A DNA stretch of 64,000 nt from Clostridia bacterium (GTDB lineage Bacteria > Bacillota > Clostridia > Christensenellales > Borkfalkiaceae). Position numbers and translations under genes: made by a program. The notes under the pieces are model-generated. The model did not search any database. It was given only the letters and a program-made list of their open reading frames with translations, and was not told the origin of the DNA. Shown in pieces: positions 9,635 through 39,440 of the stretch. Numbering within the stretch: the stretch's first letter is position 1; each line of letters begins with the position of its first letter. The stretch is taken from contig JAFQAQ010000004.1 of NCBI GenBank assembly GCA_017399945.1, positions 1 through 64,000 on the forward strand, written 5' to 3'.

Positions 9635-9879
9635 GCCGTGTGATGTTTGCGGAAAAAGGGCTTGCCCTACCGAAGGAGTAACACTCTCAGGTGTCGAAAG
9701 ATAAGGACCGTAAACGGATGGCGTTCTGGAGAATCTCAAAGCAGTTGAGTACCGAAGGTGCAACGTGGTGGCAACACCCAAATCTCTCAGGTAAAAGGAC
9801 AGAATCATTTTTTTTAGATTACTTTGCGTAATCGTCCTATCGCTGTTTTGAGCCTACCTTTTTTGGTTAGGCTCTTTTT
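9635..9879 (+). ncRNA. Tandem glycine riboswitch with terminator
   Basis: Two glycine aptamers in series. The first spans about 9635-9722, with CCGAAGGAG and CTCTCAGG. The second spans about 9724-9804, closed by TTCTG/CAGAA, with ACCGAAGGTG, TCTCTCAGG and AAAAGGACAG. The expression platform holds a small GATTAC/GTAATC hairpin (9817-9833), a GTCCT (9834-9838) able to pair with AGGAC (9796-9800) of aptamer 2, and a terminator (GAGCCTA/TAGGCTC, 9850-9874, then five T). It should control transcription of the downstream AGCS symporter; whether glycine turns it on or off cannot be decided by eye. Confidence 0.92.
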
Positions 9880-16473: not shown

Positions 16474-17253
16474 ATGGGTGAATTATTAGAAACAAAAACT
16501 AGCATTTTCGGCGTTAACTTTCTCTATTCGGAAAGAAATGAAATTACCGAAAGAGAAATACATAATTATCACGAATTTTTGTTTTATATTGACGGAAACG
16601 CTACTTTTAGAACGGAAAATTTTAGAAAAAAACTAAAACAATCTACGCTTATTTTTATTCCCAAGGGTAAGTTCCACCTTTTTACACTGGAAAACCCTAA
16701 AAAGTTTTTTAGTCTAAAATTTTCTTTTTCAGAAGGCGAAATTACCAAAAATTTGCCGACCGAATTTCTTTTAGATGCAAAACTCATAAGTAATCTCGAT
16801 CCACTTATCCTTTCTCTTTTAGAAGACTGCGTAACTCTTTTAAAAAAAGAAGTGGACGATACCGATCGTTTGCGTCTTTACGGCAATTTTATATCACTTA
16901 TTTCCACTTTCTCTAAAATAGATTGCGCCGTTTATCGGAAAAACTATTCTCCTGCCGTTTTAGAATGTATTGAGTACGTTGAAAAAAACCTTTCCGAAGA
17001 TTTAACCATTTCTAATTTAAGCAAAGTCCTAGGTTTTTCTACGTCAACCCTTTCCCATACATTTAAAACTCAAACGGGCATATCCTTGCACGGCTACGTT
17101 TGTCAAAAAAGATTATCCCTTGCCAAAATGCTTTTAGATAAAGGGGAAAAACCCACCGAAATTTATACAAAATGTGGCTATAAAGATTATTCTTCCTTTT
17201 ATAAAGCCTACGTAAAGGAATTTTCCACAAAACCAAGGCAACAAAAACACTAA
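16474..17253 (+). CDS. AraC-family transcriptional regulator
   Basis: A 259-residue regulator with an N-terminal cupin-like sensing domain (YHEFLFYIDGNATF, then IFIPKGKFHLF) and a C-terminal double helix-turn-helix: LTISNLSKVLGFSTSTLSHT, then YTKCGYKDYSSFYKAY. The layout fits regulators of sugar genes. It is divergent from the PLP enzyme/sialidase-fold pair, the most likely target. There is no Shine-Dalgarno sequence; the promoter places the transcript start at or next to the ATG. Confidence 0.93.
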   Translation: MGELLETKTSIFGVNFLYSERNEITEREIHNYHEFLFYIDGNATFRTENFRKKLKQSTLIFIPKGKFHLFTLENPKKFFSLKFSFSEGEITKNLPTEFLLDAKLISNLDPLILSLLEDCVTLLKKEVDDTDRLRLYGNFISLISTFSKIDCAVYRKNYSPAVLECIEYVEKNLSEDLTISNLSKVLGFSTSTLSHTFKTQTGISLHGYVCQKRLSLAKMLLDKGEKPTEIYTKCGYKDYSSFYKAYVKEFSTKPRQQKH

Positions 17254-17274
17254 ACCCAACGAATTAAACCAACG

Positions 17275-17305
17275 AAAAAAGGACAACGCAAGGTTGTCCT
17301 TTTTT
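17275..17305 (+). terminator. Terminator of the AraC gene
   Basis: 13-bp stem (17275-17287 with 17293-17305), 5-nt loop, with runs of A and T on either side, so it may work in both directions. Confidence 0.85.
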
Positions 17306-17306
17306 G

Positions 17307-17427
17307 TTGGTGCGAGCAAAGGGACTTGCTTCTCTCGAGCCTCCCGCAAAACAGTCCACTGGACTGTTTTTTCGCCTATGGCGAATACGCAACTATCGTT
17401 GCTAGCTCCTAATTCAAGTCCCTTTGC
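17307..17427. repeat. tRNA-Leu-derived hairpin-rich repeat element
   Basis: 17307-17328 duplicates the 3' end of tRNA-Leu (including CCA) found at 17484-17505, 22 of 22 bases, in the same orientation. 17413-17427 holds a 15-base inverted copy of the T-arm/acceptor. Between them are three perfect hairpins: AAAACAGTCC/GGACTGTTTT (17348-17370), TTCGCC/GGCGAA (17371-17385) and GCAAC/GTTGC (17389-17402). Read as protein, neither strand looks like a real gene. Confidence 0.75.
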
Positions 17428-17441
17428 AATTTTCACAAAAA

Positions 17442-17485
17442 AAATCGGCCCACCCGAACCACAAGGGTTCGTGTAGGACCGATTT
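17442..17485 (-). terminator. Terminator of tRNA-Leu
   Basis: Stem AAATCGG/CCGATTT (17442-17448 with 17479-17485), inner GAACC/GGTTC hairpin, T-run on the minus strand. It starts at the encoded CCA. Confidence 0.75.
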
Positions 17486-17567
17486 GGTGCGAGCAAAGGG
17501 ACTTGAACCCCCACGGTCTCCCACTAGATCCTAAGTCTAGCGCGTCTGCCAATTCCGCCATGCTCGC
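17485..17567 (-). tRNA. tRNA-Leu (anticodon UAG)
   Basis: Class II tRNA with acceptor stem GCGAGCA/TGCTCGC-type pairing, a D-loop with AATTGGCAGAC, and anticodon stem CTAGA/TCTAG around loop CTTAGGA (anticodon TAG). It has a variable arm, T-arm GGGTTCAAGTCCC-like, and an encoded CCA (17485-17487). Confidence 0.95.
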
Positions 17568-20937: not shown

Positions 20938-20963
20938 GGGATTTTCTCCTAATTCAAATCCCT
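20938..20963. repeat. Inverted T-arm copy next to tRNA-Thr
   Basis: A GGGATTT/AAATCCC hairpin whose right part, CTCCTAATTCAAATCCC, carries a 10-base inverted copy of the tRNA-Thr T-arm joined to CTCCTAA. The same tail is joined to the tRNA-Leu T-arm copy at 17406-17427. Confidence 0.55.
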
Positions 20964-20973
20964 TCCACCACAA

Positions 20974-21007: not shown

Positions 21008-21083
21008 TGGAGCTGGTGACGGGATTTGAACCTGCGACCTGCTGATTACGAATCAGCTGCTCTACCAGCTGAGCCACACCAGC
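21008..21083 (-). tRNA. tRNA-Thr (anticodon CGU)
   Basis: 76-nt class I tRNA with acceptor stem GCTGGTG/CACCAGC, D-arm GCTCAGCTGGTAGAGC, and anticodon stem GCTGA/TCAGC with loop TTCGTAA (anticodon CGT). The T-arm is GCAGGTTCAAATCCCGT-like and CCA is encoded (21008-21010). Confidence 0.95.
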
Positions 21084-39287: not shown

Positions 39288-39440
39288 TCTCCCAAACGAT
39301 AATTTAGAGAGACCGATAGAATTTTTTGTGCAAGGCACGTTAAAATAATAGCGGACGCGCAAAGATACCGCAGGTTAACCTTTCGTTTGCAAACGACATC
39401 CCATTTTGCAACACTTTACGCATCTTTGCTACTCTATGTT
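39288..39440 (-). ncRNA. Tetrahydrofolate riboswitch (folT leader)
   Basis: The minus-strand leader has the class hallmarks in order: GAGTAG opening stem (about 39430), GCGTAAAGTG, GGGATGTCGTTTG, CGAAAGGTTAACCTGCGG, and the closing GCGTCCGCTATT (about 39347). The platform holds a TCTCTC/GGGAGA stem (to 39288-39293) that covers the folT ribosome site and is followed by seven T. The structure can therefore block translation, transcription or both when folate is bound. Confidence 0.9.

Follow-up and report, generated by a model that had tools for sequence, protein, structure and literature searches.

The tRNA-Leu(UAG) gene studied here is followed by a short structured unit that carries, in order, an inverted copy of the T-arm (nt ~54–65), a module of three to four perfect hairpins, a direct copy of the tRNA 3′ end (nt 56/57–76 with CCA) and a terminator, and units with this layout recur behind many other tRNA genes. 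Sequence comparisons give about an even chance to the reading that the units are a non-coding, palindromic, chromosome-borne mobile family aimed at the T-loop of the last tRNA in a transcription unit, and that each unit would be a non-autonomous palindromic element whose arms were copied from the tRNA gene it targets.

The unit lies in the window, by which we mean the whole 64,000-nucleotide stretch of Clostridia DNA that was analysed. Read along the minus strand, tRNA-Leu(UAG) and its CCA are followed by terminator 1, GCAAAGGGACTTGAA, TTAGGAGC, the hairpins H1, H2 and H3, GCGGGAGGCTCGAGAGAAG, CAAGTCCCTTTGCTCGCACCA and terminator 2, where CAAGTCCCTTTGCTCGCACCA is a copy of tRNA-Leu(UAG) nt 56–76. 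Positions in tRNA follow the standard numbering, with the T-loop at 54–60 and the 3′ strand of the T-stem at 61–65. The parts are as follows.

17485–17567, minus strand: tRNA-Leu(UAG) gene, host of the unit (ARAGORN, tag anticodon; Rfam RF00005)
17485–17505, minus strand: duplicated end, tRNA-Leu(UAG) nt 56–76
17437–17484, minus strand: terminator 1, a hairpin plus T8 that starts right after the CCA of tRNA-Leu(UAG) (from the sequence)
17413–17427, minus strand: inverted T-arm, GCAAAGGGACTTGAA, complementary to tRNA nt 54–68 and to the downstream copy (repeat search)
17389–17402, minus strand: module hairpin H1, GCAAC-GATA-GTTGC
17371–17385, minus strand: module hairpin H2, TTCGCC-ATA-GGCGAA
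17348–17370, minus strand: module hairpin H3, AAAACAGTCC-AGT-GGACTGTTTT
17329–17347, minus strand: conserved right end of the module (RE1), GCGGGAGGCTCGAGAGAAG (alignment A1)
17308–17328, minus strand: direct copy of tRNA-Leu nt 56–76 including CCA, 100% identical to 17485–17505
17269–17307, minus strand: terminator 2, with a hairpin like terminator 1 of the same tRNA in the relatives G019 and G030
17308–17429, minus strand: whole unit (inverted arm, module and tRNA 3′ copy), 122 nt (covariance model R1, 132 bits)
20946–20967, minus strand: truncated second unit behind tRNA-Thr(CGU) (21008–21083), with the inverted arm GGAAGGGATTTGAA and the module left end TTAGGAG only

The preliminary description had reported a 22-nt repeat of the tRNA-Leu 3′ end. 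The repeat is real, as 17307–17328 and 17484–17505 are identical, and 21 of its nucleotides are C56–A76 of the tRNA; the remaining A is shared by chance. ARAGORN called a tRNA-Leu(tag) on the minus strand at 17485–17567, the 15-nt inverted T-arm copy at 17413–17427 was 100% complementary to 17493–17507, and the three hairpins were perfect and lay where they had been placed. For the hairpin sequence AACAGTCCACTGGACTGTT, shuffles of the window gave 0.00 expected occurrences. The hairpin of terminator 2 is similar to terminator 1 behind this tRNA in G019 and G030, so terminator 2 is probably the older of the tRNA's terminators. Behind tRNA-Thr(CGU), the terminator, the inverted T-arm and the first bases of the module are followed by unrelated DNA.

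A spurious 126-aa open reading frame (GVQVPLLAP...) crosses the tRNA-Leu(UAG) unit at 17134–17514 on the minus strand, and such unit-spanning frames may turn up as hypothetical proteins in annotations. The tRNA terminators share an inner CGAACC...GGTTYG stem within differing outer stems (17437–17484 of the window; L004, L091, L100, L104 and L108), and themselves look like a repeat family. Elsewhere in the window there are an ordinary tandem glycine riboswitch (9640–9804, plus strand) and an ordinary THF riboswitch (39347–39438, minus strand). The Rfam family STnc490, an Hfq-binding sRNA family of Salmonella, scored just above its gathering score at 16–126 on the minus strand of this Clostridia genome, which is probably a chance or structural match.

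All 39 tRNA genes of the window's own 1.59 Mb genome were then read. A search of this genome returned diverged copies of the unit, every one behind a tRNA gene and in the same orientation. A perfect copy of the tRNA's own last 15 nt was present downstream of 11 of the 25 operon-end tRNAs with enough downstream sequence, and this census is the sole unbiased sample, the other loci often having been fetched for containing a unit. The carriers were Leu-UAG, Leu-GAG, Leu-CAG, Ser-UGA, Ser-CGA, Ser-GGA, Ser-GCU, Met, Gln-CUG, Glu-CUC and Pro-GGG, and the copies ended 123–193 nt downstream of the tRNA. Decayed or truncated copies stood behind Arg-ACG, Leu-CAA, Glu-UUC and Thr-CGU, and none of the 12 operon-internal tRNAs carried a unit. 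When the ends of other tRNAs were compared to the same stretches, they matched in only 24 of 1394 trials, even with up to two mismatches allowed. This genome-wide pattern excludes chance as the source of the tRNA-end repeat.

Both ends of the unit follow the cognate tRNA. In a sample of 153 tRNAs that was enriched for units, the tRNA's own 15-nt 3′ end was found downstream with at most one mismatch in 84, compared to 0.7% for the ends of other tRNAs. The contiguous identity of the tail was 20 or 21 nt in 71 of these 84, which places the left border of the direct copy at T-loop nt 56/57. The inverted arm fitted the cognate tRNA with at most one mismatch in 57 of the 84, compared to 6% for the arms of other tRNAs, and its pairing covered tail nt 57–65 and faded from nt 66, at the border between T-stem and acceptor. 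Within one genome, interiors were 92–99% identical at different tRNAs while the cognate arms differed and the terminators were unrelated, as for Leu-CAG and Leu-UAG in G014. The Leu-UAG unit of G033 combines the tail of Leu-UAG with an inverted arm that is still that of Leu-CAA, which we read as a transfer between tRNAs at a stage when the arm had yet to be corrected.

To survey relatives, the right-end 19-mer was searched in GTDB contigs. It gave 32 exact matches, almost all in rumen or gut Clostridia MAGs, and nearly all of them were a unit followed by its cognate tRNA end; the match at L074 was a chance match in coding sequence. With a covariance model built from 31 units, whose E-values are rough, units were detected in 34 of the 44 genomes of the genus, and matches were obtained in 18 of 396 genomes sampled across the order, in additional families of the class and, beyond the class, in two genomes of the phylum. 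In the loci inspected the layout was constant and the interiors differed. Among the 102 units of the genus, 67 had an intact tRNA no more than 100 nt upstream (59 of these with at most one mismatch in the tail), 13 stood behind an exact copy of the tail, either a previous unit or a truncated tRNA, and 10 behind a partial 3′ end; one was at a contig end and about 11 had no recognisable tRNA end upstream. None of the 102 had a second tRNA within 150 nt downstream. The units measured ~115–210 bp and were gene-free in every case inspected. In the unit loci, no Rfam family except tRNA reached its gathering score, even with permissive filters. In three composite units (L099, L100 and L104) a ~30-bp element, ATCGTAGTGAAACGGAGATAC, is nested inside the inverted arm of the larger unit. 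Nearly all genomes are metagenome assemblies, in which the assembly may have collapsed tandem arrays or joined them wrongly; single units were found again in many independent assemblies.

The presence of units was patchy between related genomes and between tRNAs, many copies were decayed or truncated, and empty sites existed, for example at tRNA-Leu(UAG) in L094, L103, L116 and L117. A common arrangement in all relatives, with no empty site or other copies, would have spoken against the mobile or structured element using tRNA ends that had been offered in the preliminary description. Both were present, and the many further copies and the empty tRNA sites support that suggestion. Its other suggestion, that erosion of a larger integrative element left the unit behind as an attL/attR scar, deserves very little credence, and in its simple form it is refuted. 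In its favour, tRNA 3′ ends are frequent integration sites, and at L058, L073 and L081 the terminator and the unit come after 3′ half-tRNAs that start at the anticodon loop. These half-tRNAs are probably the right ends of larger elements that entered this tRNA later than the unit did. Against a remnant, a structured, covarying unit of ~115–155 nt was found with its size and structure intact at more than 100 loci, no inspected copy has a gene, and searches of IMG/VR, phages and plasmids returned no unit in any phage, plasmid or viral contig. An attL/attR pair of an integrase element could account for spread at one tRNA, but it leaves unexplained the tRNA-specific inverted arm, the duplicated terminators, and the occurrence of one interior at several tRNAs with cognate ends each time.

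The only three clean single insertions found, L077 (Lys-CUU), L223 (Leu-GAG) and L146 (Leu-GAG), define what is duplicated. The sequences after the tRNA and after the copy matched perfectly or almost perfectly over 61, 55 and 49 nt, respectively, which is the whole terminator, and the identity ended within 1 nt of the inverted arm. Together with tRNA nt 57–76, the flanking duplications were 81, 75 and 69 bp. The duplication thus amounts to 69–81 bp, and the inserted DNA to the inverted arm plus the module. For the fresh insertions no identical donor module was found, the best match being 95.5%. Other loci had older, diverged terminator pairs. Only 21 of 84 pairs exceeded the 95th percentile of similarity among mismatched pairs, and most first and second terminators were unrelated. 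With only about a quarter of the pairs above that level, the long target duplication was rejected as a general present-day feature.

Units also stack. Two copies were found at 14 tRNAs and three copies at 3, and whole units were tandemly duplicated at L092, L162 and L216. In two comparisons with relatives the tRNA-proximal unit was the newer one, placed between the tRNA and the older terminator; in the array of G017 the widespread AAAGAGTTC terminator stands second. A rival reading takes the units as integron-like, site-specific recombination cassettes, in which a tyrosine recombinase would put a circle of nt 57–76, terminator, inverted arm and module into the T-loop, with the tRNA T-arm serving as attI and the folded arm, module and T-arm as attC. 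This proposal, which we regard as unlikely, accounts well for spread at a single tRNA: the direct duplication begins sharply in the T-loop, newer units are tRNA-proximal, near-identical blocks of tRNA end, terminator and arm precede different modules in one array, and the symmetry of the modules looks DNA-level. The layout is also attC-like: in attC sites, imperfect inverted repeats enclose a region of variable hairpins (PMC8946536). However, a move between tRNAs would replace the acceptor strand, yet interiors shared across tRNAs have cognate ends.

The search for an enzyme also bears on this proposal. The profiles PF00589, PF00078, PF01797, PF01867 and PF00239 were each scanned over the 44 genus genomes, and none of these five recombination or reverse-transcriptase families tracked the units. 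Tyrosine and serine recombinases were common, yet without following the units. PF00589 was strong in most genomes, and the proteins seen with this general profile were Xer-like or invertase-type only. In the complete genome G008, which has five units, the sole PF00589 protein is a 356-aa Xer-like one, and G033 (98% complete, four units) has only a weak PF00589 match; both count against an integron-like recombinase. Integrases of ~310 aa beside some tRNAs (G000:C14, G025 and G038) were considered as the array integrase and rejected, since their flanks show an inverted-repeat pair before lipoprotein-like genes. These tyrosine recombinases lie upstream of the pair ACATAGAT.../...ATCTATG (L251:3827–5000, which is G000:C14; L257, L260, L261 and L264), and they probably serve an invertible-promoter (phase variation) system. 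Reverse transcriptases (RVT_1, PF00078) occurred in only 5 of the 44 genomes, which gives no reverse-transcriptase support for a SINE-like, group II or retron-type retroelement. The Y1 (HUH) transposase PF01797 occurred in 6 of 44 and not in G000, so the units lack the enzyme expected of REP or IS200-IS605 systems, and Cas1 (PF01867) was present in 3 of 44, compared to units in 34 of 44. Since none of the five families tracks the units and no phage, plasmid or viral vehicle was found, we infer that the enzyme is supplied in trans, is a host repair or replication activity, or belongs to a type not yet recognised.

The fold of the units consists of an outer stem P1, an internal loop, a stem P2 and then three to four hairpins. 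It is supported by covariation, with 113 double-changed cells compared to 34 in shuffles and at most 21 in slid controls, and the apices of the palindromes are the most variable part. Terminators act as RNA. Mismatch types were counted in stems found without favouring G-U: the module stems had 1772 Watson-Crick pairs with 5 G-T and 3 A-C mismatches, whereas the terminators had 51 G-T and 3 A-C, and P1 was intermediate with 23 G-T and 7 A-C. With pairs that are nearly all Watson-Crick and none of the G-U bias seen in the terminators, the module hairpins appear to behave as DNA palindromes, so that the structure looks to be at the DNA level; the bias in P1 could reflect pairing at the RNA level. 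A functional RNA, read through from the tRNA and acting as a tRNA 3′-end mimic, sponge or regulator, would agree with the covarying structure, the CCA tail, the terminator behind each unit and the excess of G-T over A-C in P1. We consider it improbable, with 5:3 in the module stems against 51:3 in the terminators, a terminator that stands before each unit, the patchy presence between related genomes and tRNAs, and the many decayed or truncated copies. Given this mismatch pattern, a function at the RNA level alone is less likely.

Template switching, too, gives double changes that skip the wobble intermediate (PMC8794818). It is conceivable, though rather unlikely, that the units have no dedicated mobility, and that their arrays arise and persist through template switching when palindromes are replicated, through unequal recombination and through gene conversion among repeated tRNA ends, in a form of concerted evolution. 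Near-perfect stems with double changes that lack G-U intermediates are the footprint of such switching (PMC8794818), and the variable apices, the whole-unit tandem duplications and the failure to find an enzyme fit as well. Some of the similarity of the interiors could come from gene conversion among units already in place. What these processes leave unexplained is the fixed layout of the same multi-hairpin modules in many families, always behind cognate tRNA ends, and the clean 69–81 bp duplications around a single new module.

For the mobile family aimed at the T-loop, we tentatively propose that gene-free hairpin cassettes enter T-loops by a copy reaction that would take both ends of the unit from the target, one as a direct duplication of 70–80 bp and the other as a fold-back inverted arm; this is a possible mechanism rather than a probable one. 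The module would be inserted at T-loop nt 56/57 by target-primed or staggered-cut copying. One strand would be cut at this position and the other behind the terminator, so that fill-in duplicates nt 57–76 and the terminator, and the 3′ end left by the cut in the T-loop would be extended by a copy of the module. The end of the new strand would then fold back over the hairpins of the module and copy the adjoining T-arm, giving an inverted arm specific for the target. The working form would be DNA and not RNA, either single-stranded and folded or cruciform, with the enzyme provided in trans or by the host. After insertion the tRNA would retain its 3′ end and terminator and the event would be harmless. 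A tRNA kept intact and terminated in this way may explain the restriction to operon ends; alternatively, the restriction could come from selection against insertion inside operons.

If this is true, one cassette could colonise many tRNA genes without damage and build arrays throughout Bacillota-type bacteria, as a new kind of mobile DNA. If confirmed, the units would reveal genome dynamics that are widespread yet hidden where tRNA operons end (11 of 25 operon-end tRNAs in the window's own genome), and would offer a natural system for studying copying at DNA hairpins. They would also explain recurring spurious open reading frames, partial-tRNA calls and possible assembly breaks at the ends of tRNA operons.

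We know of no described element that is as small, gene-free, multi-tRNA and target-templated, and full-text searches of the open-licence PMC literature returned no description of such units. Clusters related to tRNA were taken out of a systematic survey of stem-loop families (PMC2267715), which may be the reason why such units were missed.

The units share features with several known systems. The 3′ ends of tRNAs are classic landing sites of mobile DNA. As with tRNA-targeting ICEs, prophages and islands, which use the T-loop or the 3′ end, the tRNA 3′ end is duplicated and the tRNA stays intact. Unlike these, the units are ~115–210 bp long and gene-free, occupy many tRNAs per genome, and have an inverted arm and duplicated terminators; an integrase gene between the duplicated ends was absent from all units inspected. 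Like integron attC sites and cassettes (PMC8946536), the units are imperfect palindromes with conserved outer arms, an unpaired spacer and a variable terminal structure, folded sites that are kept by structure more than by sequence, and they form stacked arrays with the newest unit beside the anchor site. They differ from integrons in that they anchor on the tRNA T-arm rather than attI, with no IntI among the PF00589 proteins seen and no cassette gene, and in place of the fixed R-box their outer arm is the T-arm of the host tRNA and changes with the cognate tRNA.

Casposons also insert at tRNA 3′ ends with a target duplication, and in CRISPR spacer integration arrays grow as each insertion duplicates the target (PMC6977970). 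However, casposon duplications are 14–15 bp and CRISPR repeats 25–50 bp (PMC6977970), compared to 69–81 bp for the units; 41 of the 44 genus genomes have no Cas1, and neither system has the inverted, target-derived arm of the units. Like REP, BIME, ERIC and BOX palindromes, MITEs and stem-loop families (PMC2267715), the units are short, non-coding, intergenic hairpin repeats with many copies per genome, and are probably non-autonomous. Unlike these repeats they have a strict tRNA 3′-end address, target-derived arms, a very long duplication and no fixed terminal inverted repeat; where MITEs have constant ends and a short, constant duplication, the inverted arms of the units vary with the tRNA and the duplication of 69–81 bp is variable. 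By kind the units belong with short, palindromic, non-autonomous repeats, and in their address, their target-derived arms and the length of their duplication they differ from every system compared here.
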